DNA of 35,541 bases. Source: a virus. The stretch covers positions 1-35,541 of IMG/VR virus record IMGVR_UViG_3300024518_003629; one strand, written 5' to 3'. This document shows positions 7,674 to 35,541 of the stretch, one piece after another (within the stretch, counting starts at the first letter, position 1; each line of letters starts with the position of its first letter). A program made the translations under genes and the position numbers. Under the pieces are notes generated by a model. The model was not told where the DNA came from and did not search any database. It saw nothing but the letters and a program-made list of their open reading frames with translations.

Positions 7674-8048
7674 CTATACCTTTCTACATTTGACATTAAT
7701 TAGAAAGTCTATATGTGAAGTTAAATCTTCCATTTTATCTTTACATAAATAAGTGTCATAACCACTTAAGCCTGCAACTGTGGTAATGCTTTCTTCATGT
7801 CCTGTAAGGATTAGGAGGGGAATTCTAAACTTAAACTTAAGCTCAACTAGCTCCTGGTTTAGTTTATAGCTTTTGTCAGGCAAGTTAACATCTAATATGA
7901 TTAAATCATACCTGTTTCTTTTAAGGGCTTCTAGTCCCTCTGTAAGGGTGTATTTTGATTCACAGTCATAATGGCCTTCGACCTCCATTTTAGACTTTAT
8001 ACCATAACAAAACCCTTCATTGTCATCTATTAGGATTATCCTTTTCAT
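7674..8048 (-). CDS. Stand-alone response-regulator receiver domain (CheY-like, 124 aa)
   Basis: All phosphorylation-site residues are present: acidic pair D8-D9 (IILIDDNE), phosphoacceptor D53 (LIILDVNLP), Thr82 (LLILTGH) and Lys103 (YLCKDK). Length equals one receiver domain, with no output or DNA-binding domain. In bacteria these domains take phosphate from histidine kinases and signal by protein contact. No histidine kinase is in the window, so phosphate would have to come from the host. The gene overlaps the 3' end of the membrane-protein gene by 26 bases and is the last gene of the late unit. A role in late control or host signalling is inferred. Confidence 0.92.
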   Translation of the reverse strand: MKRIILIDDNEGFCYGIKSKMEVEGHYDCESKYTLTEGLEALKRNRYDLIILDVNLPDKSYKLNQELVELKFKFRIPLLILTGHEESITTVAGLSGYDTYLCKDKMEDLTSHIDFLINVKCRKV

Positions 8049-15500: not shown

Positions 15501-16342
15501 TATTTAATTCCACCTTGTAAGGCCAAAAGAGGGAGTAGTTGCTGAATAGTTCCGAATGGGCCACCCATAGCTCTACCCTGTGCAATTTCACGAGCGGAGC
15601 TAATATTGCCTAATGCCTGTTGACTTTGGGCTAGTTGTTGCCCTTGTCCTACAAACTGACCACCGATTGAAGAAGCCAATTGAGGCCCAACGTTTGCGAG
15701 CCCTGCTAATGTACTTATTGGGGCTTGTTGTTCTGCAAATTGTTGACGCCTTCCAGCTAATAATTCACCAAACCTTTGACCCTGTGTTTGTGCTGCGAGT
15801 TGTTGCTGTGCTAAATTCTGCCCAAACTGTTGACCTTGTTGAGACTGAAAACGATTAAAAGCTTGCCCCGCTTCTTGAGAGGCTAACCCTTGGTTAAACC
15901 TTAAAGATTCCTTTATGGCTCTTCCACCTAAAGCCCTACCTTTAGATGCTCCAAATCTTTCCAAAGCTTGTTCACCTTGTTGCTGTCTAAATTGAAAACC
16001 TGGGTCTTGTCCTAATATATCTTGAAGGGTGAATTGTTGTTGCCCTTGTTGGGGTTGAAAAGCTTGCGTTCCAGGTTCCAATGCTTGAGGCTGTTGCCCT
16101 AGTTGTTGGGTTGTTAAATCTTGTAGCGTTTGAAATGCTTGTTGCCCTCGTCTTAGAAAGGGTTGTTGAATTCCTAAAGCTTGTTGGAATTGTTGTTGTT
16201 GTTGCTTTTGTCCCTTTTCAACTGCTCTTGTTTGAATCCTTGCCGCATCTCTAGCAGATTCACCTTCAATTAAATTTTTAGCTATTCCAGAAGCTAATAA
16301 CCCGCCACCAATCGCTAAAGCTGTTCCCGTTGCAACCGCCAT
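15500..16342 (-). CDS. Q-rich ejection protein, P22 gp7-like by position (280 aa)
   Basis: Starts with a hydrophobic Gly/Ala segment (MAVATGTALAIGGGLLASGI), followed by an extremely Gln-rich body (QQQQQFQQALGIQQPFLRRG, DPGFQFRQQQGEQALERFGA), with LGGRAIKESLRFNQGLA and an N-terminal membrane-active helix. This matches the general look of phage DNA-transfer proteins. The Gln runs make the DNA rich in CAA/CAG repeats (TTG/CTG on the plus strand), which explains the low complexity there. Confidence 0.8.
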   Translation of the reverse strand: MAVATGTALAIGGGLLASGIAKNLIEGESARDAARIQTRAVEKGQKQQQQQFQQALGIQQPFLRRGQQAFQTLQDLTTQQLGQQPQALEPGTQAFQPQQGQQQFTLQDILGQDPGFQFRQQQGEQALERFGASKGRALGGRAIKESLRFNQGLASQEAGQAFNRFQSQQGQQFGQNLAQQQLAAQTQGQRFGELLAGRRQQFAEQQAPISTLAGLANVGPQLASSIGGQFVGQGQQLAQSQQALGNISSAREIAQGRAMGGPFGTIQQLLPLLALQGGIK

Positions 16343-16809
16343 TAATCTAACTCCTTAACATAATGAGTCTCTATTTCTCTATACCCTTTTTTTGTATAGA
16401 TAGACTTTAATTTTTCAGGCATTAATTCATTAAGATGAACCATTGTTAATCTTTTAACCCCTAATTCCTCACTGATTTCTTCAAACCTATTTAAAAGCCG
16501 AAGCCCTCCGCCCCTATGCTCTTTTCTCATATACCAAAACGTTTCTGTAGCAGATAGCTCACCATCTAGAATATCTTCATAAAAGATAAAGCCAAACATT
16601 CCAACGATTTCGCCTTTTTTATGAGCTTTTAATATTATTCCCGTTCCGTTATTGTAGAAGTTAATCCAATTTCTTTTGAAAACATCTTCTTTAAATGAGA
16701 AAGAGCTGTTCGATTCTTCAACAAACTCATAGCCTAGAGGGTATAATTGCTCGATATCCTGTACTTCTAGGATATCTATCTGTAATTTTTCATTAATTGT
16801 TTCTACCAC
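16342..16809 (-). CDS. GNAT-family acetyltransferase (155 aa)
   Basis: The acetyl-CoA loop is RGGGLR at 99-104 after beta-4 (SATETFWYMRKEH), followed by helix 3 (LLNRFEEISEEL) and beta-5 (RLTMVHL). This is motif A/B of GNAT enzymes over the full domain length. It sits inside the tail module between the fibre-like and ejection-type genes, so it may modify a virion or early host protein, or act only as a structural fold. Substrate unknown. Confidence 0.85.
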   Translation of the reverse strand: MVETINEKLQIDILEVQDIEQLYPLGYEFVEESNSSFSFKEDVFKRNWINFYNNGTGIILKAHKKGEIVGMFGFIFYEDILDGELSATETFWYMRKEHRGGGLRLLNRFEEISEELGVKRLTMVHLNELMPEKLKSIYTKKGYREIETHYVKELD

Positions 16810-25759: not shown

Positions 25760-25842
25760 TACATTGTCCTTTTGAGGTCAGAGATACTCATATGTACATA
25801 AAATAGATTAATTATTTCCTGTTTGGCAATTTTATTATTCAT
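25759..25842 (-). CDS. 27-residue mini-gene between TerL and portal
   Basis: The frame MNNKIAKQEIINLFYVHMSI... fills the whole gap exactly. It starts in the TAATG at the TerL stop and ends in the TAATG at the portal start. Helical (KQEIINLFYVHM). It may encode a peptide, or serve only to carry ribosomes from TerL to portal so that the portal site (AAAAGGACAATGTAATG) is reached. Confidence 0.5.
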   Translation of the reverse strand: MNNKIAKQEIINLFYVHMSISDLKRTM

Positions 25843-27260
25843 TAATTACCCATCCAGCCATCATCAGAGGCGTAGTAGAAGTCTTGATGGGGTGCCTCTT
25901 CCTCTTCTCGTTCCTTAATTATGGGTGTTGCATAAGTCATTGCTAGGGCATCTCCATTATCTGGAGATTTAAGCCCCCGCCTTTTCATATCTTGCTTTTT
26001 CTCTAATTGAAGCCTGTTTTTATTATCAAAGCCATATTCAGGAGCGGTTAAATCAACCTTCATTTCATCACTGTAAGGTAAGTCTACCCCCGCTTTAAAG
26101 GCATCCTTCATTGTGTCCCACATTTCTATACGCTTATTGAAATATTTAATTGGGTTGTTTGCTTTCCTTCCTCCGTTTATTTCTTGAACTACTTCCGGGG
26201 GGATTAACTGCTTAACTCGGTCAACAACTCCACCTCCAACACCGTCTCCATCTATAAATATGGCCTCTGGTTTGCGCTCTTCATAAAATTCAACAATCTT
26301 TCCCGCTGTCACCATCGTGTCAACACCTCGCCAGGTTTGAATTGGTTCAACCTTTCTACCCTGCCTAACAGCTAAAGCATTTTGGTCATCCCCAAACCTT
26401 GCGATATCAACACCGAATATAATTGGAAACTGTTCATAACCTAAAGCCTCATACAAAAAGCAATCCTCTACAACTTCAGAAGATATCAATTGGTTTGAAC
26501 CTGCCCTTGGGAATTGTCCTTTTATCCTAATTCTGCAGAAATCCGAATCTTCCCCATAGTCCTCAATCCATTCTTTTATTTGACCCTTATCCGAAATAGA
26601 AACGTCTCTCGAATCAACCTGCATTGTTTTCCATCTATGTGCAAGCTTCCCCCAACATTCTTTAAACCTTCCAGTATTTCTAGTGGGATTCCCAAAGGCA
26701 ACCCAACGAGCTCCAGCTGTGGTCATTGCACCCTCTGAAGTTTCCCAAATGTTATCAGAAATGGCGCTTGCCTCATCAAATAAATAAAGTACATGGTCTT
26801 CATGAGTTCCCGCAAAGGCTTCAGGATTCTTTTCGCTCCATGGAATAGCAGAAGCAAACCAAGTATCAGGGGCGCTTTTCATATAAAACTTAGTTGCTAT
26901 TTTCTCATACCAACTCTTATTGAGGGCCATATTATTTATTTTAGATAGCTCTCTCCAGGTTTTAGTATCTAATTGGGATTTGGTGTTTGCAGTAACAACG
27001 ACTTGAGGTTCTGGCCTGGTTGACATAAACCAATGAATAATAACAGCTATTTCAAATGTTTTACCGATTCCATGCCCAGAAGCAACAGCAATTCTTTTAT
27101 TATCAACCAAGTTCTCTAGCATTTCTTTTTGCCAGTCTTCTAGGTTTTTTATTCCGAGTACATCGTAAGCATAACCAACCGGATTTTGGAAATAGTTTTC
27201 CGTTATAAATGCGCCATCATCCAAATTACTTATTCCATTTCTGTTTAATTTGGTCAGCAA
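25842..27260 (-). CDS. terL: Terminase large subunit (472 aa)
   Basis: ATPase: Walker A SGHGIGKT (61-68), Walker B VLYLFDEAS (157-165) and a coupling motif in FGNPTRNTG (189-197). Nuclease: GVDIARFGDDQ with D285, FIDGDGVGGG with D337/D339, and a C-terminal acidic residue in SPDNGDALAMT. A headful-type terminase of the P22/T4 class would explain the circularly permuted assembly. Overlaps terS by 35 bases. Confidence 0.95.
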   Translation of the reverse strand: MLTKLNRNGISNLDDGAFITENYFQNPVGYAYDVLGIKNLEDWQKEMLENLVDNKRIAVASGHGIGKTFEIAVIIHWFMSTRPEPQVVVTANTKSQLDTKTWRELSKINNMALNKSWYEKIATKFYMKSAPDTWFASAIPWSEKNPEAFAGTHEDHVLYLFDEASAISDNIWETSEGAMTTAGARWVAFGNPTRNTGRFKECWGKLAHRWKTMQVDSRDVSISDKGQIKEWIEDYGEDSDFCRIRIKGQFPRAGSNQLISSEVVEDCFLYEALGYEQFPIIFGVDIARFGDDQNALAVRQGRKVEPIQTWRGVDTMVTAGKIVEFYEERKPEAIFIDGDGVGGGVVDRVKQLIPPEVVQEINGGRKANNPIKYFNKRIEMWDTMKDAFKAGVDLPYSDEMKVDLTAPEYGFDNKNRLQLEKKQDMKRRGLKSPDNGDALAMTYATPIIKEREEEEAPHQDFYYASDDGWMGN

Positions 27261-27687
27261 TTGATATTTCTCCAGAGTGTTTAACTTCTTGTGGAGTGTA
27301 TTTAGCTGTCATTTTATTGCAAATGTCTAAGTATTTGGCTCTAGCCTGATGGTCTGCATAAATCTCTAAATCAAATTTGGGTTCACCTTCTTTTGCATTT
27401 GGATTCTTTTTCCACTTTTCAAAGGTTGCTTCTAGCCCTTCAACCAATACCATTAATATTTTGTCTTCAGGCATTCCGAGCCTAGCTAGTTTCTGAATAG
27501 TATTTTCTTCTATCTGTTCTTCAACCTTTTTAGCAAGACTTCCCTTAACCCAACCTTCTTTACTTATTTTAGTTTTTATTGAAGGTACTGATATCGTATG
27601 CTTTTTGGATAAGTCTTCAACACTCTTAAATTTACCGCTTTCATAGTCTACCCTAGCTCTTTTCCAAGCTGCTTTACTATAAGCCAT
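27226..27687 (-). CDS. terS: Terminase small subunit (153 aa)
   Basis: The N-terminal helix-turn-helix ARVDYESGKFKSVEDLSKKH, then ISVPSIKTKISKEGW, is the DNA-binding domain of many TerS proteins. A helical oligomerisation region follows, with a C-terminal tail (QIKQKWNK) that would meet TerL. Start taken at the ATG at 27687 (TAATG junction, GGAGTGGG upstream); an in-frame GTG at 27696 is less likely. It should recognise the pac site. Confidence 0.88.
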   Translation of the reverse strand: MAYSKAAWKRARVDYESGKFKSVEDLSKKHTISVPSIKTKISKEGWVKGSLAKKVEEQIEENTIQKLARLGMPEDKILMVLVEGLEATFEKWKKNPNAKEGEPKFDLEIYADHQARAKYLDICNKMTAKYTPQEVKHSGEISIADQIKQKWNK

Positions 27688-27887
27688 TAAACCCACTCCA
27701 TTCCGTTATAGGTTTTAATTTCATATTCATCTCTCCATAAGTCGCCTATGATTGGTTTCTCTGGTTTAGGTAGTTCAGCGATAAAACAGGTGTACATTTG
27801 AATTATATCTAGAGGTAAGAGGTTTTCAGTTGGATAACCTTTTTCAGTTAAAAACCTTTTGGCTTCTTTGATGGTTATGGTTTCCAT
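27687..27887 (-). CDS. Hypothetical small protein (66 aa)
   Basis: METITIKEAKRFLTEKGYPT suggests a beta strand followed by a helix. Joined to neighbours by TAATG at both ends, so it is part of the late transcript ahead of terS. Function unknown. Confidence 0.72.
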   Translation of the reverse strand: METITIKEAKRFLTEKGYPTENLLPLDIIQMYTCFIAELPKPEKPIIGDLWRDEYEIKTYNGMEWV

Positions 27888-28081
27888 TATTTAGTAGTCT
27901 CTTTGTATACTTCGTCTAAAATGTTTTTATCAATTTCGTCTGCTATTTTATTAGCGAAGTCTTGAATAAGTGTTGAAGTGCATTTTTTTCTATGTTCTTT
28001 AATATCTCTTGTTATTAGTCCTCCACATTTATTGCATGAGTACTTCAGCATTTCTTCAATGGTCATTTTTGCTTCAATCAT
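27887..28081 (-). CDS. Small zinc-finger-like protein (64 aa)
   Basis: C16-x2-C19-x10-H30-x3-C34 (CNKCGGLITRDIKEHRKKC) forms one C2HC metal site, followed by a helix (LIQDFANKIADEIDKNILDE). TAATG at both ends. A nucleic-acid or protein-binding role near terS is plausible only by motif. Confidence 0.75.
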   Translation of the reverse strand: MIEAKMTIEEMLKYSCNKCGGLITRDIKEHRKKCTSTLIQDFANKIADEIDKNILDEVYKETTK

Positions 28082-28308
28082 TAGCTTTTAATCCTAGCAA
28101 TCTTTTCATTTGGTTTAGGTGAGTATCCATAAGGAAAATCAACCGTTCCATTTGGGTTTATTTCTAGCCAACATTCAATAGTATCATTAATAAATGACAC
28201 TTCATTTTCTATTGCTTTGTCTAGTTTTTCATTCCAGTTAGTACTGGGCCTTTTACTTATCTCATTAGCCTTATTCTCAATTGTTGTTGTGTTAGAATCT
28301 TTGCTCAT
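28081..28308 (-). CDS. Hypothetical first gene of the late unit (75 aa)
   Basis: MSKDSNTTTIENKANEISKR is polar and disordered. Then comes a helix (EKLDKAIENEVSFINDTIEC) and a Pro-rich end. It is the first gene after the terminator at 28349-28378. The predicted -10 ends about 8 bases before its ATG, so the mRNA may have almost no leader. Confidence 0.7.
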   Translation of the reverse strand: MSKDSNTTTIENKANEISKRPSTNWNEKLDKAIENEVSFINDTIECWLEINPNGTVDFPYGYSPKPNEKIARIKS

Positions 28309-28315
28309 TATATAG

Positions 28316-28344
28316 AATCTATATATTTATTCAATATAAGTCAA
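28316..28344 (-). promoter_or_regulatory. Probable late promoter
   Basis: Minus strand TTGACT (28344-28339), 17-bp spacer, TAGATT (28321-28316). It lies in AT-rich DNA between a terminator and the first late gene. It is only partly similar to the five AT-palindrome elements, as expected if it is controlled differently. The short distance to the ATG is odd. Confidence 0.5.
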
Positions 28345-28348
28345 ATTG

Positions 28349-28378
28349 AAAAAGCCCAGCTCAATTAAGAACCGGGCT
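28349..28378 (-). terminator. Rho-independent terminator closing the early accessory unit
   Basis: Stem AGCCCGG/CTGGGCT (28378-28372 with 28359-28353 in the minus transcript, one G-U pair), 12-nt loop, followed by five U (28353-28349). It separates the early block from the late promoter. Confidence 0.85.
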
Positions 28379-28400
28379 CTGTAGGGGGGAGAGAAAAAGT

Positions 28401-28547
28401 CTATTTAGTTTCTGTGTTTGTTAATTCTTCTGGAGTTTCCCAACATTGGCAGCTTGTATTAGTTGGGATGGGTGTTAATCCAAACCAGAATTGGTTTTGG
28501 GTGTATTTTGTTTTGCATCTTCTACAATAACCTGTACATAATTCCAT
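28401..28547 (-). CDS. Cysteine-rich mini-protein (48 aa)
   Basis: Five cysteines at 4, 8, 11, 33 and 35 (MELCTGYCRRCKTKY and TSCQCWETPEE) suggest a small zinc-binding fold. The ATG at 28547 follows AGAGCGAATAA, a moderate site, and the gene overlaps its neighbour by 26 bases. Last gene before the early terminator. Confidence 0.65.
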   Translation of the reverse strand: MELCTGYCRRCKTKYTQNQFWFGLTPIPTNTSCQCWETPEELTNTETK

Positions 28548-28674
28548 TTATTCGCTCTTCTAGTGTTGATTCTTTTTGTTTTTGTTTAACTTCTATTTCT
28601 CTTTTTAACTTAATAGCTTTTTCATTCCAATTAAGTAGAGATTCCAAACCATCTTCAGGGTATATATCAATCAT
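28522..28674 (-). CDS. Hypothetical helical protein (50 aa)
   Basis: MIDIYPEDGLESLLNWNEKA followed by a Lys/Glu/Gln helix to INGIMYRLL. ATGA overlap with the upstream gene, 26-base overlap with the cysteine-rich gene. No known motif. Confidence 0.6.
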   Translation of the reverse strand: MIDIYPEDGLESLLNWNEKAIKLKREIEVKQKQKESTLEERINGIMYRLL

Positions 28675-28874
28675 TCTTCTTCTTTGAACCAGTAGTCTAC
28701 TAGTAGTTTAAGTTTTATCAGGTCATTTTGTGCGATTGACAATACTCGTCCACCAACAACAAAAGATATTCCATGCATATCAAAATTAACTGAAGTGCAC
28801 CAGTCTTTATTAATCCCGTGTGAACATTCCATTTTTTTGAAGAGTAGTTCTTTAGCTTTGTCTAGGTTAGTCAT
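28671..28874 (-). CDS. Hypothetical protein (67 aa)
   Basis: Helix (MTNLDKAKELLFKKM), then a beta pair (VNFDMHGISFVVGGRVLSIA), then a C-terminal helix. The layout resembles the next gene (28867-29124), which also has a helix, a central beta pair around a Cys/His segment and a final helix, so the two may be diverged copies. ATGA overlaps on both sides. Confidence 0.65.
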   Translation of the reverse strand: MTNLDKAKELLFKKMECSHGINKDWCTSVNFDMHGISFVVGGRVLSIAQNDLIKLKLLVDYWFKEEE

Positions 28875-29124
28875 CGTATTCCTTTGTTTTAATGTTGTCT
28901 AAGAAGTTTTGTAAGGTTTCAAAATCGTTTATGTGGAGGGTTAGGCTTTCCTCTCCTTTACTAAGAGTGAATTCACCGTTCTCACTTAATGAAGCTCGTA
29001 AAGTTTCTCCATCACAGATGGCGTGACAATGAGAGATAAAGCATTTATTTTTTTCTAACTCTTCTTGAAGTTCTAAGTATTTCTTATGCTTGGTTAGTGC
29101 TTTTTCAAGATGTGTTCTAGTCAT
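28867..29124 (-). CDS. Hypothetical protein (85 aa)
   Basis: The N-terminal helix carries KALTKHKKYLELQEELEK, then CFISHCHAICDGETLRASLS, an amphipathic beta pair and a final helix (FETLQNFLDNIKTKEYDD). The Cys/His cluster CFISHCHAIC could bind metal. Overlaps both neighbours by a few bases. Confidence 0.65.
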   Translation of the reverse strand: MTRTHLEKALTKHKKYLELQEELEKNKCFISHCHAICDGETLRASLSENGEFTLSKGEESLTLHINDFETLQNFLDNIKTKEYDD

Positions 29125-29324
29125 TTCATTTTCCTCTTAAGTTCTTTAAGCCCTTCTTTAAATGGTTTAAACTTGGGTTCTTTTATGCCTTTAATCTTGA
29201 TTGTTCCGCCCCTTTTCTTTTTAAACCTGAGTGATATGGGCTCTACTTCACCTTTTAATTCAGAATAGTTTTCTCTAGCCCAAATTATTGAAGTTGTTTT
29301 ACCTTCTAATTCACATTTAATCAT
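29121..29324 (-). CDS. Small very basic protein (67 aa)
   Basis: I use the second Met (ATG at 29324, MIKCELEGKTTSIIWARENY) because AAGGA lies eight bases upstream; the ATG at 29330 is too close to that site. Rich in Lys/Arg (RFKKKRGGTIKIKGIKEPKF), which suggests nucleic-acid binding. Coupled to its neighbours. Confidence 0.6.
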   Translation of the reverse strand: MIKCELEGKTTSIIWARENYSELKGEVEPISLRFKKKRGGTIKIKGIKEPKFKPFKEGLKELKRKMK

Positions 29325-29457
29325 TCTCATATTCCTTTATAATTGCTTTAGCTATTTTAGGGAAGTCTTGCTTTCTGATATGAAGTTTACCAGACCAATC
29401 AGAATACAACCATTTTGGGCTACTCATTATATCTACTATTCTCTCTTCTGTTATCAT
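29317..29457 (-). CDS. Hypothetical small protein (46 aa)
   Basis: MITEERIVDIMSSPKWLYSD followed by a basic helix ending KAIIKEYEND. It fills an otherwise empty 120-base gap, starts in an ATGA overlap and ends eight bases inside the next gene, whose ribosome-binding site it carries. Function unknown. Confidence 0.6.
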   Translation of the reverse strand: MITEERIVDIMSSPKWLYSDWSGKLHIRKQDFPKIAKAIIKEYEND

Positions 29458-29651
29458 GGGGTGATCTCCTTTCTTAATGCCTCTAGTGCTTTGTCGACAT
29501 CTTGATATAAAACATCTAAAACGAATGTGTAATAAATCTCATTAATAGGGCCTTTCAATAAAGCTTCTTGAACTTCTATTTTTTCATACATAGTTAAGGA
29601 ACCCCATAACTCTATAAACTTGAGTATTTTATCTTCTCTAGTTTTACTCAT
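29454..29651 (-). CDS. Hypothetical helical protein (65 aa)
   Basis: All-helical, MSKTREDKILKFIELWGSLT onwards, ending ALEALRKEITP. Stop and start share ATGA with the downstream gene, and the upstream stop is directly adjacent. No known family. Confidence 0.65.
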   Translation of the reverse strand: MSKTREDKILKFIELWGSLTMYEKIEVQEALLKGPINEIYYTFVLDVLYQDVDKALEALRKEITP

Positions 29652-29990
29652 CTATTCTTTGTCCCCTGTGTCCTTAATATATTCCCACTCTCTTTTAGGT
29701 TTTTTCCCTATTATTTTTAAAGCAAAGTTTAAATTTTCAAGTTGTAATTTTCTAATTTCTATTTTATCGAGAATAATTTTTCTGTATTCATTCCTTTTTT
29801 CCACATTGTAAATAGTGCCTTTTATGTGCCAGCTGTGCTTCCAGTCATCCATGTCTATCATAGAATTTAAGAATTTTTCTTTAACCCTATCAACATTGTA
29901 GTAGTTTGATGAGTGGTGTATTTCTAGCCCATCGCGTTTATTTTTAAATAAATAATTTTCGCCATCCATATAAAAATTTAGTGTGCTCAC
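29652..29990 (-). CDS. Hypothetical protein (112 aa)
   Basis: Beta-rich start (MSTLNFYMDGENYLFKNKRD) with a His/Trp/Tyr-rich middle (DDWKHSWHIKGTIYNVEKRN) and a long C-terminal helix (YRKIILDKIEIRKLQLENLN). Overlaps its upstream neighbour by ATGA. I recognise no family. Confidence 0.68.
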   Translation of the reverse strand: MSTLNFYMDGENYLFKNKRDGLEIHHSSNYYNVDRVKEKFLNSMIDMDDWKHSWHIKGTIYNVEKRNEYRKIILDKIEIRKLQLENLNFALKIIGKKPKREWEYIKDTGDKE

Positions 29991-30286
29991 TGTTCTTTCC
30001 TTTCTAATTGTTTAGCCTCTTTGACTATTCTTTTTAAATATTCCTGTATTGTTTCCGAGTGTACAATATGAGATTTAAGAAATACTCTTCTCCAAGAGCC
30101 CTCGTAATCACCCCAAATCCCTGCGCCCTCTTCGTAAATTACAACCTTAGCCTTGGGCGCTAACTTTTCAAACTCCTCTTTACTTAAATCACAAAACCCC
30201 TCACAAACTTTACTCTTCACTCTAATTTTAGCTTGACTAGGCGTTCGGAAACAGTAAAATGAATTATTCTCTTGTATGCAGGGCAT
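29987..30286 (-). CDS. Hypothetical protein (99 aa) behind a structured leader
   Basis: Start at the ATG at 30286 (MPCIQENNSFYCFRTPSQAK) because GAGAGGATAAT precedes it; the longer frame would run through the structured region. Four cysteines in the first half (C3, C12, C28, C32) could form a metal site, followed by a Glu/Lys/Trp-rich second half. The leader at 30302-30418 may control it. Function unknown. Confidence 0.68.
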   Translation of the reverse strand: MPCIQENNSFYCFRTPSQAKIRVKSKVCEGFCDLSKEEFEKLAPKAKVVIYEEGAGIWGDYEGSWRRVFLKSHIVHSETIQEYLKRIVKEAKQLERKEQ

Positions 30287-30301
30287 TATTATCCTCTCTC
30301 T

Positions 30302-30418
30302 CTTATGTGAAAGTGTATAGAGCAGGCAGCAAGCTAAAATCCGTTTTATTACTGACACCCATGTTGCCTTCCGGAAGGTGGATTACACATAAGTATGCAA
30401 ACTCACCACTGCTCTATA
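30302..30418 (-). ncRNA. Structured leader or small RNA with pseudoknot-like interleaved repeats
   Basis: Two inverted repeats interleave: CTTATGTG (30302-30309) with CACATAAG (30386-30393), and TATAGAGCAG (30316-30325) with CTGCTCTATA (30409-30418). Order A-B-A'-B' cannot nest, so both pairings together would form a pseudoknot. A 12-bp palindrome CCTTCCGGAAGG (30367-30378) lies inside. The 30287-30436 gap has no good gene; only a 19-codon frame starts at 30361. Confidence 0.5.
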
Positions 30419-30436
30419 TACTATTCCTTTAGTTGT

Positions 30437-30616
30437 TTAATTCAAAGAAGCCCTTACAAAACAATCTTTTGCTTCTAAAAGCTTTCTTAATCCAGCCGAT
30501 TTCTCTGCACAATCTGGCAATACGTGGTCCATTTCTTGGGCTAATACGCAAATGGGTTTTGAAACCTCCTGAAGTTTTTCAGGTAAATGTTCGTATTTAA
30601 AATATTTTATAATCAT
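30437..30616 (-). CDS. Acb2/Tad1-hairpin-like small protein, anti-defence candidate (59 aa)
   Basis: MIIKYFKYEHLPEKLQEVSK, then helix (PICVLAQEMDHVLPD) and helix (EKSAGLRKLLEAKDCFVRAS). The pattern F-x-Y...P...Q...A..LP...E.S..L.KL.EA matches the two-helix hairpin I know from Acb2-type sponge proteins that bind cyclic nucleotides of CBASS and Thoeris defence. The final W/N/A-rich motif of Acb2 is replaced by KDCFVRASLN, so ligand binding is not assured. Start preceded by AAAGGAATAACAAT. Related short phage proteins are common and mostly unstudied. Confidence 0.72.
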   Translation of the reverse strand: MIIKYFKYEHLPEKLQEVSKPICVLAQEMDHVLPDCAEKSAGLRKLLEAKDCFVRASLN

Positions 30617-30628
30617 ATTGTTATTCCT

Positions 30629-30826
30629 TTATTGTTTAGCTCTTAATTTTTCTATTTCACATTGTCTTTCTGTTTTCCCCGATTCTATACATTGTAATTT
30701 TATCAGTTTTCTATTCTCTACCCTCTCAAAAGCTCTGCTTATGCTTTGAAGCATATTGCTCACACAAAAAGTTAATGCGATTCCGCAAAAAATAGGAATC
30801 CAGTATTTCTTTAAAAAAGTTTTCAT
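30629..30826 (-). CDS. Small inner-membrane protein (65 aa)
   Basis: Basic N-terminus (MKTFLKKYW), one transmembrane segment at about 10-28 (IPIFCGIALTFCVSNMLQS), then a charged helical cytoplasmic or periplasmic tail (FERVENRKLIKLQCIESGKT). Overlaps the YopX-like gene by ATGA. It could be a superinfection or lysis accessory; nothing specific is visible. Confidence 0.65.
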   Translation of the reverse strand: MKTFLKKYWIPIFCGIALTFCVSNMLQSISRAFERVENRKLIKLQCIESGKTERQCEIEKLRAKQ

Positions 30827-31281
30827 ATTATTTCCTTAATTAAATGCTTATCTTCATGAATGTTGCCTATTTGTATTATCCCATCATCACTTGGAAGAGT
30901 GTTTAAAGGTCTTCGCTCTGGATATATTTTATTAATCTCTTTCGCATAAAACCCCCAAGCACTTGAAATCCCTCCATATTGGTCATCAAAAGAATGCTCT
31001 CCAAACTTCACAACCCATGTGCGTCCTATTTCCTTTCCACTACAGCTTTTCCAAGGGTTTTGAATAAAATCATCCTTAAATATTTTCTTGTCGTTCTTAT
31101 CCTTACGGTTTGTGTATTGCATTGTTTTTATATCTAAATCTCTGCCTACCTCTTCGATAAGTTTTGGCATTGCTAGTTTATTTCCTAATGCTTCCCAATC
31201 ATAAAGGAGTATTGAAAAAGGTTTTATTCCTACATTCTGATACATTTTACCTTCATACCATGCTCTAAACTCTAATTCCAT
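30823..31281 (-). CDS. YopX-family protein (152 aa)
   Basis: Family features in order: FRAWYEGKMYQNVGI near the start, MQYTNRKDKNDKKIFKDDFI in the middle (the YTGLKDKNGKEIYEGDI-type beta-barrel signature) and IIQIGNIHEDKHLI at the end. YopX proteins are common in phages of Gram-positive and Gram-negative hosts; their function is unknown. Confidence 0.85.
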   Translation of the reverse strand: MELEFRAWYEGKMYQNVGIKPFSILLYDWEALGNKLAMPKLIEEVGRDLDIKTMQYTNRKDKNDKKIFKDDFIQNPWKSCSGKEIGRTWVVKFGEHSFDDQYGGISSAWGFYAKEINKIYPERRPLNTLPSDDGIIQIGNIHEDKHLIKEII

Positions 31282-31282
31282 T

Positions 31283-31483
31283 CTATAACTCCTCTAACCA
31301 ATCTTTCATTTCTTGAATAAGCGCTTCTTTTATTGTTTTTTTTGCTTCCGAAATAATTTCTAGGGGTTGCTCATAATCAAAAACATCTCCTAAATCTTTT
31401 TTAATTTTAAAAATGGGAGCAACCCCAATAATATCATGAGACATTGATTCTTTATTGTAAACAATTCTGTAATCAAATTCCAT
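31283..31483 (-). CDS. Hypothetical protein (66 aa)
   Basis: Beta-strand start (MEFDYRIVYNKESMSHDIIG), then an acidic middle and a helical end (AKKTIKEALIQEMKDWLEEL). Adjacent to the YopX-like gene with a one-base gap and AGGAGTTATAGA after its stop. Function unknown. Confidence 0.65.
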   Translation of the reverse strand: MEFDYRIVYNKESMSHDIIGVAPIFKIKKDLGDVFDYEQPLEIISEAKKTIKEALIQEMKDWLEEL

Positions 31484-31484
31484 T

Positions 31485-31967
31485 CTAGTCTATCTCCTTT
31501 AGTTGTGTGCCGCATTTAGGGCAGAAGTTTGTTTCTTCTTTGATTGTTTTTGCAACATATTTTCTTGATATGTCTAAAGCGTAATTAGAAATAGTATTCG
31601 TATGTTTACACTTAGCTCTTAGCTCCATGAGTTTCTTAGCTTTTATGTCTTTAATTTCTTGTTTAGTTTTAAATCTTAATTGAATTCCATCTCTAATTTC
31701 TGGGTCTTCAGATAATTCCAATTGCTTCTTTTCTTCTTTCCAAGCTTTGCTTTTCCAAAAATCAAGTACTTCTAATTGTTCTTCGTTAAGGGTTTTTTCT
31801 ATTGCGTCAAATTCTTGACATTCTCCAGCTGATAAAAAAGGAGGGCCTTCTTCTCCTTTTTCTTCTCTCTCTAATACTCTTTGAAGTAAATCCTTACCTT
31901 TTTCTGTTAAACCCCATGAATCGACTCCATCGTTATTCCATATTACACCTTTAAAATATTCACTCAT
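31485..31967 (-). CDS. Hypothetical protein with C-terminal zinc ribbon (160 aa)
   Basis: The N-domain starts SEYFKGVIWNNDGVDSWGLT, with a helical acidic middle. The C-terminal 45 residues hold CKH and FCPKCGTQL, a split zinc ribbon. Long charged helix at 60-110. The start at 31967 follows GGGAGAGAGAA. The zinc ribbon suggests nucleic-acid or protein binding; role unknown. Confidence 0.75.
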   Translation of the reverse strand: MSEYFKGVIWNNDGVDSWGLTEKGKDLLQRVLEREEKGEEGPPFLSAGECQEFDAIEKTLNEEQLEVLDFWKSKAWKEEKKQLELSEDPEIRDGIQLRFKTKQEIKDIKAKKLMELRAKCKHTNTISNYALDISRKYVAKTIKEETNFCPKCGTQLKEID

Positions 31968-32069
31968 TTCTCTCTCCCTTAAATACAGTGTAGGGGGTTT
32001 CCCCCCCGATACTTACAACAGATTCACCTAGTTAAAAGTAAGCACCCCACTCTGGACACTGATTTTTAT
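31968..32069. other. Noncoding gap with GC hairpin and CAGTGT inverted repeat
   Basis: A GGGGG-TTT-CCCCC hairpin (31992-32004) lies beside CAGTGT (31985-31990), whose complement ACACTG is at 32055-32060, so the outer repeats enclose most of the gap. No U-tract follows on either strand and no gene of credible size fits. It could be a transcript-stability or protein-binding structure. Confidence 0.45.
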
Positions 32070-32447
32070 TTATTTGTTGTAATAATCGAAACAAACACTT
32101 TCAACTTCGTAAAATTGAACAAAGTTATTGGCTGTAACAACTGCAATTCTCATATCTTCTGCAATTAGATTATCACCTTTTTCACTTGGTTTAAATGAGG
32201 GTGGAAAAACTTTCAATACAACAGCTGGCGAGCCAATAGCGGGACATCTATATCTTGTTTTACCTCCAACGTTTTTCTGTGTTATCACATCCCCTTCTTT
32301 AAATAAAGGTTCTTTCAAGCCACCGATTAAATCAGAAATCATTTCTAATTGTTCCTCTTTGCTCATGCTTACTGGCTCATCCTTCCCGCTGCGCGACCCT
32401 CTTTCTTCCATGTCTCGTTCCATTCCTTCAAGTAATTCTTTAAACAT
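32070..32447 (-). CDS. Hypothetical early protein (125 aa)
   Basis: First gene after the AT element at 32467-32509, with CAAGGAGTTAAG before the ATG at 32447. A helical charged N-half (LLEGMERDMEERGSRSG) and a beta-rich C-half (KEGDVITQKNVGGKTRYRCP, AVVLKVFPPSFKP) that looks like a small barrel. No family recognised. Confidence 0.72.
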   Translation of the reverse strand: MFKELLEGMERDMEERGSRSGKDEPVSMSKEEQLEMISDLIGGLKEPLFKEGDVITQKNVGGKTRYRCPAIGSPAVVLKVFPPSFKPSEKGDNLIAEDMRIAVVTANNFVQFYEVESVCFDYYNK

Positions 32448-32466
32448 CTTAACTCCTTGTTGTTGT

Positions 32467-32509
32467 TTGTTAATATATAAAATATATATAACTATTATAT
32501 AAATCCAAG
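32467..32509 (-). promoter_or_regulatory. AT-palindrome promoter element, copy 4
   Basis: Minus strand TTGGAT (32508-32503), 16-bp spacer, TATATT (32486-32481), then the TTTATATATTAAC arm. Same geometry as copy 2 and placed just upstream of the 32447 gene start. Confidence 0.75.
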
Positions 32510-32516
32510 CTTTTAT

Positions 32517-32921
32517 TTATTTATTTTCCAATTCCAATATAAGGTCTTTATCTACTAGGATTAATCTTTCTTCAAGCTGTATGAATTCTAAGACTTTGTA
32601 ACCAGGTCTATTAATGTACTGTGCTGTATCAAGAGTACAGTTTGTAATATTTTTGATTCTTAAGTCTTCTAAAAGGAGTAGATTACTTTGAGTTGTATAA
32701 GAATAAGTTTGGATGTTTATTAGGCATGTATCAGAATAGAGCTCTATGCTATACTCATTTTTACTAAAAATATGTACCTGTGTGGAATCTTTTTTATAGG
32801 TTCCTTTTATGGCTAATGGTTCTACTTGCTCTCCTTCATGGGTATGCGGAGTTAGTGGGTTTTCTTCCTTAATAGCACAACCAAGTAAGAATATTAGTAT
32901 TAAATAGTATCGGTAATCCAT
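32517..32921 (-). CDS. Phage-encoded lipoprotein (134 aa)
   Basis: A short signal peptide MDYRYYLILIFLLGC has a lipobox (LLGC, Cys15). The mature chain starts CAIKEENPLTPHTHEGEQ and is then beta-rich (STQVHIFSKNEYSIELYSDT) with two further cysteines. Strong ribosome-binding site (GGAGATTAACGA). Lipoproteins carried by phages of Gram-negative hosts often block receptors (superinfection exclusion) or act in lysis. It is expressed from the early block, which favours exclusion. The function is inferred. Confidence 0.8.
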   Translation of the reverse strand: MDYRYYLILIFLLGCAIKEENPLTPHTHEGEQVEPLAIKGTYKKDSTQVHIFSKNEYSIELYSDTCLINIQTYSYTTQSNLLLLEDLRIKNITNCTLDTAQYINRPGYKVLEFIQLEERLILVDKDLILELENK

Positions 32922-33175
32922 TCGTTAATCTCCTGTCTAAGTGAATCTAAAAAGGTTTTTTCTGAAGCTGTTTTAATTGTAGGTTGGTGTACTGTTTTTT
33001 CATCGTACCAATTATATTGTCTTGGAGCAGCAGCCTCCATATGGCCGCCAAGACTACCTAAAACTTCAGCTTGAAAAGCGTTCCCCATCGCCTGCGCGCC
33101 TCTTTGTCTACACCTTTGTTCATTAAGAGAGCGAGTTAAAATATCAGCATTAAAACCTAAGCTAGCCATAGCCAT
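32900..33175 (-). CDS. Hypothetical protein (91 aa)
   Basis: MAMASLGFNADILTRSLNEQ, then an Ala/Gly-rich basic stretch (RCRQRGAQAMGNAFQAEVLG) and an acidic helical end overlapping the lipoprotein start by 22 bases. Starts in a TAATG overlap. MASLGF at the third codon is an alternative start. Unknown. Confidence 0.65.
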   Translation of the reverse strand: MAMASLGFNADILTRSLNEQRCRQRGAQAMGNAFQAEVLGSLGGHMEAAAPRQYNWYDEKTVHQPTIKTASEKTFLDSLRQEINEWITDTI

Positions 33176-33555
33176 TATCTTTTCTCGGTTATTTTCATAT
33201 TTACATTGGGAAGGGCTTCAGAGAGTTTGTCATAAACTGCTTTTAATTCAACCTTTCCTTCTTTGATTAGCTCCATTTGTTTCTCATGGTATTGTCTTTC
33301 AAGTTCTCGCTCTTTCTCTTGGTAGTCCCTTTGCATGACTACTAGTTTTTTGTCTAATTCTAATTGGTCTTTTTCTTGTTTCATTTTAACAAGATGTTTG
33401 ATTTCTTTTTCTTCAAGCTTCTTTTGAAGCTTGAGTTCTGCCACCTCGTCTTTAAGTTTGATAACTTCGCTTTTTAAAGAAACCTCCTTCTTTTCGTCTT
33501 CAAAATAAATGGCGTCTCGAATAATGTTAATTAGTGTTTTTTTTGTGAAAATCAT
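33175..33555 (-). CDS. Coiled-coil protein (126 aa)
   Basis: Residues about 20-105 form one continuous coiled coil (KSEVIKLKDEVAELKLQKKL, QRDYQEKERELERQYHEKQM). A hydrophobic N-terminal segment (MIFTKKTLINIIRDAIYF) could be amphipathic. It overlaps the HNH gene by four bases (ATGA). Function unknown. Confidence 0.7.
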   Translation of the reverse strand: MIFTKKTLINIIRDAIYFEDEKKEVSLKSEVIKLKDEVAELKLQKKLEEKEIKHLVKMKQEKDQLELDKKLVVMQRDYQEKERELERQYHEKQMELIKEGKVELKAVYDKLSEALPNVNMKITEKR

Positions 33556-33812
33556 GTTGCCTCCTTGATTTTTCTTAGTTGTTTTTTTGTTATTTTTGGA
33601 AATCTCTTACCGTGCGCGTGGTCATGGTGTTTTCTACATAGGGTTATAAGATTGTTGTGTTCATCACCTCCGCCTTGGGATTTAAAAACGATATGGTGGG
33701 GAGGGTCTAAAAAAAATTCACAACCTTTTCCTATTTGACAATATGGATATAATTCAAAATATTCCTTAACTAGTTTTTTATCTCTTATTATCTCTTTTTT
33801 CGGAAACATCAT
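33552..33812 (-). CDS. HNH endonuclease, free-standing (86 aa)
   Basis: The HNH core is complete: HHI (39-41), the Gly-rich loop KSQGGGDEHNN with N54, and LCRKHHDHAHG with H62/H63 and H67. Cys25, Cys31 and Cys59 may hold the structural zinc. Short HNH proteins cut or nick dsDNA and near terminases assist packaging. Here it is in the early block about 4 kb upstream of terS in transcription, so a packaging role is less certain. Ribosome-binding site AGTAGGATAAT. Confidence 0.88.
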   Translation of the reverse strand: MMFPKKEIIRDKKLVKEYFELYPYCQIGKGCEFFLDPPHHIVFKSQGGGDEHNNLITLCRKHHDHAHGKRFPKITKKQLRKIKEAT

Positions 33813-33825
33813 ATTATCCTACTGT

Positions 33826-33888
33826 TTACATAATTCCAAACATCAGAACCATAAAAAGCTTTTTTTTCCACTCGGTTTCGTTAATCAT
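33826..33888 (-). CDS. Possible 20-residue hydrophobic mini-gene
   Basis: The frame MINETEWKKKLFMVLMFGIM starts in an ATGA overlap with the coiled-coil gene and ends just above the HNH ribosome-binding site. A basic patch followed by a hydrophobic helix suggests a membrane peptide. It may instead be a chance frame in a 72-base gap. Confidence 0.35.
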   Translation of the reverse strand: MINETEWKKKLFMVLMFGIM

Positions 33889-34178
33889 TTGTTAACCTTC
33901 ATGAGTTTGTTTATTTCTTTTTCGTATTCCTCTGGGCATGCTTGCCAGTTTCTAACATTCTCTAATATTTTCATAGCACTATCAAAGTTTTCTCTTAAGG
34001 TCTTCGTTTCTTTAAGGTTACTTTTTGCTTGGTCATACCAAAATAATTTAGTCCCAATACACCCCTCTAATTCCTCGTTAAGTACCTTATTTTCTCTAGT
34101 GAGTCTTACTATTTCTTTTTCCTGGTCTTCGTTATGAGTCTTAAGGACTCTTAGTTGTTTTTCTAACTCTTCTGACAT
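33885..34178 (-). CDS. Coiled-coil hypothetical protein (97 aa)
   Basis: MSEELEKQLRVLKTHNEDQE forms a coiled coil to about residue 38. A second helix with TLRENFDSAMKILENV and a C-terminal CPEEYEKEINKLMKVNK follow. Its ATG directly follows the upstream stop (TAA ATG). Unknown function. Confidence 0.68.
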   Translation of the reverse strand: MSEELEKQLRVLKTHNEDQEKEIVRLTRENKVLNEELEGCIGTKLFWYDQAKSNLKETKTLRENFDSAMKILENVRNWQACPEEYEKEINKLMKVNK

Positions 34179-34337
34179 TTATTCCTCCAAGGGTACAAAG
34201 GTTTCAGTTTTTATTTTGTAATTACTATAAATTAATCCACCAGGAACGCGACAAACAATATATATGGTTGGTCCAACCGATACCTCTTTGAAAGAGTGGA
34301 TTTTCATGTTTATTAACTCTTCTTTATTGTTAGTCAT
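34179..34337 (-). CDS. Hypothetical beta-rich protein (52 aa)
   Basis: Short N-terminal helix, then strands IHSFKEVSVGPTIYIVCRVP and LIYSNYKIKTETF. Overlaps the upstream gene by eight bases and fills a 150-base gap. It ends with CTTGGAGGAATAAATG, so the next gene uses its tail as a strong ribosome-binding site. Function unknown. Confidence 0.65.
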   Translation of the reverse strand: MTNNKEELINMKIHSFKEVSVGPTIYIVCRVPGGLIYSNYKIKTETFVPLEE

Positions 34338-34632
34338 TTAATTTTCCTAGTATTAGGAGTCTTTTATGTTCAGGAATTAGATTTACTATTTCTTCAAAAG
34401 ACGGAGCTTTCTCTTCTCCTAAAAACTCTTTTCTAATATTATCTACAAATCCTAATTCATGGGTAAATACAGCCCTTCCAAGTTCTTTTTCTAAACACAT
34501 ATGAAAATGAGAAAAATCCATGCAAAGCTTTTCTTGAAAAAGTTGAAACTTCACAACTTCATTTGGTGTCCATTTTTTCCATACTTTACTTTCTGCAAGC
34601 TCTATGGCTTGTTTTTCTGTCAGTTCTTTCAT
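34330..34632 (-). CDS. Conserved small phage protein (100 aa)
   Basis: The segment SKVWKKWTPNEVVKFQLFQE, then KLCMDFSHFHMCLEKELGRAVFTHE, is a pattern I have seen in other phage genomes (W..w....v.FQLFQ..LC..F..FH...E..L.R.V.THE). The fold and role are not known to me. A helical C-terminus with PSFEEIVNLIPEHKR follows. ATGA overlap upstream. Confidence 0.72.
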   Translation of the reverse strand: MKELTEKQAIELAESKVWKKWTPNEVVKFQLFQEKLCMDFSHFHMCLEKELGRAVFTHELGFVDNIRKEFLGEEKAPSFEEIVNLIPEHKRLLILGKLND

Positions 34633-34967
34633 TCTTCAACCTCTATAGGGGATAAACCTTCTGCTAGCATATAATCACAGTTATGAAAATCTGCTTCTGC
34701 TTCTTCTGGAGTTCTGTAGATGTCTGAAAGGCGCCATTCTTTAGTAGTTCTGTATCTGTGTAAGTATTTCTCAACTGTTTTCTTAGGTTCTATGTAGAGT
34801 TCCCAAGGCCAGCAATAGAAACAGTGCATCTCATTTTTTTGGTTATCTACACAAAAAAAAGCATTTGTTCCGAGGTATAACACTATAACCCAAGAATCTT
34901 TTGACCATTCGCCATGCCTAACTTTGTCCCCAATATTAAACTTTCCTATAAACTCTTCTCTAGTCAT
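34629..34967 (-). CDS. Hypothetical early protein (112 aa)
   Basis: First gene after the element at 34983-35023, ribosome-binding site AAGGAGAGAGCAAA. The N-half is a beta-barrel-like domain (FNIGDKVRHGEWSKDSWVIV, CYCWPWELY region with clustered Cys/Trp) and the C-half is helical (RLSDIYRTPEEAEADFHNCD). Unknown function; the first gene of an early unit often acts on the host. Confidence 0.72.
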   Translation of the reverse strand: MTREEFIGKFNIGDKVRHGEWSKDSWVIVLYLGTNAFFCVDNQKNEMHCFYCWPWELYIEPKKTVEKYLHRYRTTKEWRLSDIYRTPEEAEADFHNCDYMLAEGLSPIEVEE

Positions 34968-34982
34968 TTTGCTCTCTCCTTC

Positions 34983-35023
34983 GTTGTATATAAATATTAT
35001 ATAATTAATATATAAACATCAAG
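34983..35023 (-). promoter_or_regulatory. AT-palindrome promoter element, copy 5
   Basis: Minus strand TTGATG (35022-35017), 17-bp spacer, TAATAT (34999-34994), flanked by CTTG. It drives the first early accessory unit at 34967. The stop of the 39-aa gene lies inside the element. Confidence 0.75.
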
Positions 35024-35138
35024 ACATTTTTTCAAATTCTGCAATTTTCTTTAATCTGTCCTTTACTCTCCATACTCTCACTTGGTTTATTGAAAAGCCA
35101 ATCATTAAACCCATTAGAAAAGCAGTTGAATTTTCCAT
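35019..35138 (-). CDS. Small protein with hydrophobic N-half (39 aa)
   Basis: MENSTAFLMGLMIGFSINQV is hydrophobic, then comes a basic helix (RVWRVKDRLKKIAEFEKMS). It starts in a TAATG overlap with the loader-like gene and ends just inside the promoter element. Probably the last gene of the replication unit. It could sit in the membrane; role unknown. Confidence 0.55.
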   Translation of the reverse strand: MENSTAFLMGLMIGFSINQVRVWRVKDRLKKIAEFEKMS

Positions 35139-35541
35139 TATCTAGTCCTTTTTTTGGTTAGTCGCTTTATTATTTCTTGAATATCGTGTTTTGGTTCTGG
35201 CTCTTTAGCCATTTTAAGGTACTTCTTGTGTTGTGGATGTTCTGGGGGGTACTTGTCAGCGAAAAGCCAACATTGTTGTTCCCACGACATTGCAGGCTCA
35301 TCATAGGGTAATTTATAGCAGTCTGAAGAGTTTCTTTCCTTAAGAGCCATCCAAATTTCTTTAATCTCTCTGGGTTTAGGCATAAACTTTCCCTTAGCTC
35401 GGAATTCTTTAAAACAATCTCTAAGTATTTCAGGGTCGTGATTTTCCGAAAAGTTCTCTTCTGCCCAAGTATTAGCTTGAATCTTAAGGGTATCCTCTGA
35501 ATCAATTTTTTTTCCTAGCGATATATGGGTTATAACCAATT
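35138..35541 (-). CDS. Helicase-loader-like replication protein, 5' end wraps to position 49
   Basis: Within the window the frame is open to the end. Across the circular junction it extends to an ATG at 49-47 with AAAAGGAAACAA upstream, giving 147 residues that begin MELNRGIATVIYEQL. The segment NHDPEILRDCFKEFRAKGKFMPKPREI resembles the helical core of G39P-type and lambda-P-like loaders (a helix, then F.P...EI). It starts inside the 3' end of the initiator gene and follows it, the order of initiator-loader pairs in lambda-like and SPP1-like phages. The helicase it would load must come from the host. Confidence 0.7.
   Translation of the reverse strand, partial: LVITHISLGKKIDSEDTLKIQANTWAEENFSENHDPEILRDCFKEFRAKGKFMPKPREIKEIWMALKERNSSDCYKLPYDEPAMSWEQQCWLFADKYPPEHPQHKKYLKMAKEPEPKHDIQEIIKRLTKKRTR
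35533..35541. repeat. Terminal overlap identical to bases 1-9
   Basis: TAACCAATT occurs at both window ends. Merging the copies gives a 35,532-bp circle in which two overlapping genes read through the joint. This is what a circular or headful-packaged, permuted genome gives after assembly. Confidence 0.75.

Follow-up and report, generated by a model that had tools for sequence, protein, structure and literature searches.

A 59-residue viral protein and its family, a remote and previously unannotated sister branch of the Acb2/Tad1 hairpins

The locus studied here raises the question of whether a very small viral gene, likened to the Acb2/Tad1 hairpins in a first-pass annotation of its sequence, is truly related to these proteins, and which ligand its product might then bind. 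The window, meaning the whole stretch of DNA analysed, is a 35,541-base IMG/VR virus record in which every called gene lies on the minus strand. The open reading frame annotated at 30437-30616 was confirmed in its coordinates, its strand (-) and its length, the product being 59 amino acids followed by a stop (MIIKYFKYEHLPEKLQEVSKPICVLAQEMDHVLPDCAEKSAGLRKLLEAKDCFVRASLN). A Shine-Dalgarno-like AAAGGA (30625-30630, minus strand) can be read directly from the sequence 8 nt 5' of the ATG. The gene sits in a row of small genes, which include one with a YopX domain; the row ends at a strong terminator-like hairpin of 12 pairs (28380-28351, minus strand), and the packaging genes lie beyond that hairpin. 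Its assignment to an early block in the first-pass annotation is uncertain. The distance to the downstream putative terminase small-subunit gene, which was assigned by position only, is about 2.7 kb. Terminator-like sites in the region 27000-35541 were more frequent than expected (11 observed versus 4.6 expected), while the count of promoter-like sites near the hairpin gene was no higher than chance. A nucleotide megablast search of the hairpin gene region against phages gave no match.

Some other genes of the window may be recorded here. The terminase large subunit (TerL; 25842-27260, minus strand) has its best match in the phage collection in BK063671.1, a virus assigned to Methanomicrobiales (52% over 92%), followed by Pseudomonas phage AF and epsilon15-like phages. 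The gene at 7674-8048 (minus strand) encodes 124 amino acids resembling a stand-alone response-regulator receiver domain (IILIDDN...LIILDVNLPD), which is unusual for a phage, and a GNAT-like acetyltransferase sequence is found at 16342-16809 (minus strand) within the run of structural genes.

The 59-residue open reading frame is a real gene, far above chance expectation. In tblastn searches at E up to 1, homologues were found in 369 phage records, with the top match at 79% identity (E 3e-22), and the same search with Acb2 yielded 322 phage records. Furthermore, the gene was confirmed in at least 580 IMG/VR stretches and was present in 25 plasmid records and, as judged by a search with the single pattern RKLLEAKD, in 195 genome stretches. 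The carriers include Erwinia jumbo phages and phages of Vibrio, Acinetobacter, Rhodobacter, Gordonia and Mycobacterium, among others, with the gene in varying positions, and the family also occurs in prophage-like loci from several bacterial phyla. The window protein gave full-length profile matches to phrog_1761 (2.6e-30) and phrog_5120 (1.3e-24), two families without function, and neither Pfam, NCBIfam nor PHROGs holds a name for the family. The closest gene pairs have dN values of 0.008-0.023 against dS values of 0.30-0.71, which indicates strong purifying selection on the 59-residue protein.

Near-invariant residues among the relatives are F6, H10, L11, L15, S19, E38, R44, K45, L46, E48 and A49, and K50, D51, V54 and R55 are likewise conserved. 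Since the bacterial loci were retrieved by the pattern RKLLEAKD, the invariance of this pattern in them reflects how they were selected. Conservation is more fairly counted in set A2, the divergent members found by tblastn (42-75% identity), which this selection does not touch; in A2 the start Met, L15, E38, R44, K45, L46, E48 and A49 are invariant. Several bacterial genomes hold two family copies, namely Silvania confinis (loci L231/L261), Xenorhabdus szentirmaii (L221/L226), Stenomitos rutilans (L224/L225) and Pseudescherichia vulneris (L216/L218), and in Acinetobacter NZ_CP104448.1 the gene is found at four places; these multiple copies presumably belong to separate prophages. At one phage locus (L041:2162-2437, plus strand), two genes downstream of the family member, a 91-residue protein is encoded whose N-terminus is rich in Cys and whose C-terminus is a half-hairpin (EHRAVKKLEDALFWLKHSIRK). 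This protein weakly matches phrog_1454 (E 0.004) and is possibly a second hairpin protein of the same phage.

The pattern of the F-x-Y-x-x-L-P...AEKS...KLLEA type on which the first-pass annotation was based is indeed present in the translation. The profile search that it proposed as a check, however, did not bear it out at the level of the single protein: the Pfam model of the Acb2/Tad1 hairpin, PF24729, does not match the window protein, which as a single query also retrieved nothing from Pfam, NCBIfam or the PDB. At E up to 10, PF24729 matched 13 of 70 family members, about as many as were matched by Occludin_ELL, an unrelated eukaryotic helical model. The curated cut-off of 27 bits was reached by none of the 70, the best score being the 16.4 bits of the AGM2 member, whereas Vs.4 of phage T4, a proven Acb2, scores 71 bits. 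Because this cut-off is not reached and two near-constant features are absent, the family is not to be filed as a member of PF24729.

The proposed kinship stood when whole profiles were compared. HHalign aligned the broad family with eight accepted short PF24729 hairpins at probabilities of 93.9/95.5% and scores of 38.3/42.5 (single-comparison E 1.5e-07/1.3e-08), where the top score among 40 column-shuffled or reversed controls was 13.2. Against a set of 12 sequences that includes Acb2 and T4 Vs.4, the probabilities were 80% and 84%, and the alignment covered 55-58 columns, from the F-x-Y motif to the C-terminal half or the end of helix two. No match was returned by hhalign when the family was compared with Acb2 proper alone, which means that the link between the two is visible only via the short PF24729 hairpins. 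A bridge is provided by phrog_1454, which contains such short hairpins (the Lactococcus 1706 hairpin matches it at 2.1e-16) and matches the window protein (0.0013) and, weakly, T4 Vs.4 (7e-4). The member from Brevibacterium phage AGM2 matches phrog_1454 at 3.9e-06 and PF24729 at 0.011. Moreover, phrog_1454 found the family gene in every one of 15 virus records (E 4e-06 to 0.005), these records being related and thus non-independent. The register of the alignments holds both the N-terminal F-x-Y and the P-x-x-x-E-K-(S/A)...L..A pattern. A PF24729 gene above the cut-off did not co-occur in any of 48 virus records, many of which are fragmentary.

Profile searches of the PDB were less informative. 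The A1 family profile gave weak unrelated matches only, and the match to PDB entry 9ptq (E 0.67-1.2 in the whole PDB; 42 columns with A2) is suggestive only. Matches to Gp22 and to a designed coiled coil were set aside as partial helical matches. In the PDB sequence set, 9ptq was the sole short Acb2 homologue matched and none came from the present branch, so that the earlier remark that the short type is poorly studied was a fair one.

The predicted structure agrees with the profile comparisons. The AlphaFold2 model of the single chain (pLDDT 96.7) is all-helical, with a short helix followed by two long antiparallel helices that form a hairpin. The short N-terminal helix is modelled for residues 2-6 (IIKYF; 30599-30613, minus strand) and overlaps the F-x-Y-x-H-L-P motif of residues 6-12 (30581-30601, minus strand), which was delimited from the alignments. 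Residues 13-32 (30521-30580, minus strand) make up the first predicted long helix, including Ser19-Lys20, and residues 37-56 (30449-30508, minus strand) the second, which carries the conserved EKSAGLRKLLEAKDCFVRA. An antiparallel two-helix hairpin with a short N-terminal element is thus predicted, as in PF24729, and the Acb2 protomer has been described as having the same arrangement (PMC12043709). Among the structural neighbours of the model in BFVD, the named ones outside the family were mostly 'Acb2/Tad1 hairpin domain-containing' proteins, the first of them at rank 7 with a probability of 0.99. A Foldseek search of the PDB with the window model did not list Acb2 or Tad1 chains, and the chains returned by Foldseek combined with VIA-align were all helical but unrelated, with middling Z. 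When the modelled Lactococcus 1706 hairpin served as a control query, T4 Vs.4 came top of the PDB list, but at an E of no better than 1.0; a two-helix protein this small is therefore hard to place by this search. Profile-profile alignment, the bridging phrog_1454 and the predicted structure together support the view that the family is a remote homologue of the Acb2/Tad1 hairpins, with common ancestry with the PF24729 hairpins apparent at the profile level. The family is a remote sister branch of these hairpins that was previously unannotated. The first-pass annotation named the fold correctly; the cyclic-nucleotide sponge that it proposed is a hypothesis.

We compared five positions that are either linked to ligand binding or invariant among known hairpins; one of these, the N-terminal Tyr, is kept and four are changed. 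The columns of Acb2 Lys26 and Arg67, which we take to be nucleotide-contact residues, hold Ser19 in the window protein and Ala/Pro37 across the family, respectively. The near-invariant Thr of the known hairpins (T-x-L, second helix) is replaced by Arg44 in all members counted. Tyr8 of the window protein falls in the Acb2 Tyr8/Tyr11 column; in T4 Acb2, an exchange of Tyr8 for Ala disrupts the binding of cyclic dinucleotides (PMC12657218). Leu58 occupies the column of T4 Phe82, a residue that stacks on the ligand (PMC12657218). The tail had been singled out as unusual, and rightly so: the short PF24729 members carry an ANAxIAR-type tail that is absent from the family, the window protein ending in KDCFVRASLN and the family having VRA-x-L in this place. 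These column changes are consistent family-wide, and a new constant set, consisting of His10, Ser19, Glu38, Arg44, Lys45, Glu48, Lys50, Asp51 and Arg55, stands in place of the lost positions. Any ligand therefore probably differs from that of the characterised Acb2, and the four changed columns fit the previous suggestion that the protein might bind a different ligand or none.

In its relatives, the family gene mostly has the same orientation as its neighbours (127/146 upstream, 121/147 downstream). Rz spanins, endolysins, terminase large subunits and minor head or morphogenesis proteins are among the products encoded directly upstream, and the head protease, the scaffold and the terminase small subunit among those encoded downstream. 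A recurrent order of holin (-3), lysozyme (-2) and Rz (-1) relative to the family gene was observed in enterobacterial prophages, and an amidase is located at -1 in actinobacterial loci. A lysis, terminase or head gene lies within three genes at 43/157 family loci versus 6/80 Acb2 loci, a contrast that is biased upward since the same reference set, used for both, was built from loci of the hairpin family. Acb2 neighbours belong mostly to unnamed families. The position of the family gene is nonetheless variable: it lies beside baseplate genes in Dickeya phage JA33, Alteromonas phage AD45-P4 has it in an array of small genes, and a Vibrio phage carries it behind the gene for the major capsid protein. 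Of 19 carrier host genomes, taken without a matched control set, two contain a SMODS-type CBASS cyclase.

We give an even chance to the reading that the protein is a sponge that derives from Acb2/Tad1 and takes up a different messenger, in which the remote homology and the hairpin fold are supported and the oligomer, the ligand and the counter-defence role are inferred. The 59-residue protein would be a minimal, diverged member of the helical-hairpin superfamily that assembles into an oligomer, as Acb2 and Tad1 do; pockets between its subunits would take up a nucleotide-type immune messenger and thereby keep it from its bacterial effector. It would have retained the ancestral N-terminal aromatic Tyr8, with the other compared positions replaced, and its ligand would not be that of the characterised Acb2. 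Both the scattered carriers and the shifting positions of the gene are as expected of a counter-defence gene. Against this reading stand the lack of any Pfam score above the cut-off, the absence of Acb2 and Tad1 from the PDB Foldseek hits, the four changed positions, the frequent late-gene neighbours and the presence of a CBASS cyclase in only two of the 19 host genomes. More specifically, and only tentatively, the family may represent a large, third, unannotated Acb2/Tad1 branch that sequesters a messenger bound by neither Acb2 nor Tad1 and that, being often encoded in the late region, is made when capsid-triggered defences fire. ThsB of Thoeris senses the major head protein (PMC12043709), and phages with acb2 deleted can escape CBASS via capsid mutation (PMC10419184), so a late location is, as a conjecture, compatible with the sponge reading: a sponge made together with the head genes would be present at the moment of alarm. 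Another functional reading is that the same CBASS or Thoeris messengers are still bound by what would be a functionally ordinary Acb2 or Tad1 despite sequence drift, for which one could invoke the aromatic conserved at the T4 Acb2 Tyr8 position, the same predicted hairpin and the ability of one sponge to bind several messenger classes (PMC12043709). The changes in the Lys26, Arg67, invariant Thr and T4 Phe82 columns, all of them consistent across the family, make this improbable in our view.

The frequent lysis, terminase and head neighbours leave room for a role in virion assembly or lysis. According to the main rival explanation, which we consider rather unlikely, the hairpin scaffold has been re-used in a late-programme accessory factor, acting for example in lysis timing or in head or terminase assembly, which would bind a protein and no nucleotide. 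The upstream and downstream late genes speak in its favour, as do the holin-lysozyme-Rz order in enterobacterial prophages and the actinobacterial amidase, but neither partner nor position is fixed, as the baseplate genes, the small-gene arrays and the small genes upstream of the terminase in the window illustrate. Moreover, the lysis-packaging junction is also a common location of accessory cargo genes. Finally, the resemblance to Acb2/Tad1 could be a convergence of two-helix hairpins in an unrelated protein. Such hairpins are common, the sequence matches are weak, a eukaryotic helical family is matched by as many members and Foldseek on the PDB finds unrelated helical chains only. We nevertheless judge this very improbable, because the shuffled-column controls score threefold lower in HHalign, the two motifs are aligned in register and the named BFVD matches are concentrated on one family.

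With respect to its frequency in phage records, this unnamed family, spread across many phage groups, is about on a par with Acb2. If its members are sponges, the strict conservation and the altered positions would point to one conserved ligand, which is probably no messenger of the characterised Acb2, and the protein would offer a direct handle for finding that messenger. As Acb2 also triggers the Panoptes system (PMC12657218), the distribution of an Acb2 cousin bears on the evolution of decoy systems.

Among the known systems, Tad1 (PDB 7uav, 8kbb-8kbh) has a C-terminal helical hairpin of the same superfamily as the family described here, but also an N-terminal beta-sheet domain (PMC12043709) that the all-helical 59-residue window protein lacks; Tad1 binds gcADPR. 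Acb2 is a homohexamer that binds cyclic di- and trinucleotides and inhibits CBASS. With Acb2 (T4 Vs.4; Pseudomonas phage p26; PDB 7uq2, 8h2j, 8ixz) the family has in common the Tyr of the Tyr8 (T4)/Tyr11 column and, in the case of T4 Acb2, KL-x-EA.....RA; it differs from Acb2 in having Ser19, Ala/Pro37 and Leu58 in the Lys26, Arg67 and T4 Phe82 columns, in the absence of an extended inter-helix segment and in the late-gene neighbourhood of many relatives. 'Acb2 homolog 43' (9ptq, 76 aa) is the nearest solved relative by profile, though at an E no better than 0.67, and retains a REKS...TKLEEA pattern that is altered in the family; this solved structure hints at a family-wide survey, for which no paper was found in the literature searched. 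Compared with the short PF24729 hairpins (phrog_1454; Lactococcus 1706, Paenibacillus and Gordonia phages), the family has a first helix that is about 4 residues shorter, a score below the Pfam cut-off, A/P instead of R and R instead of T in near-constant columns, and the tail KDCFVRASL instead of MWANAAIAR. Both groups nevertheless share the F-x-Y motif, a two-helix hairpin, a similar size and (R/A)-E-K-(S/A)-x-A-(I/L)-x-x-L-x-x-A in helix two.
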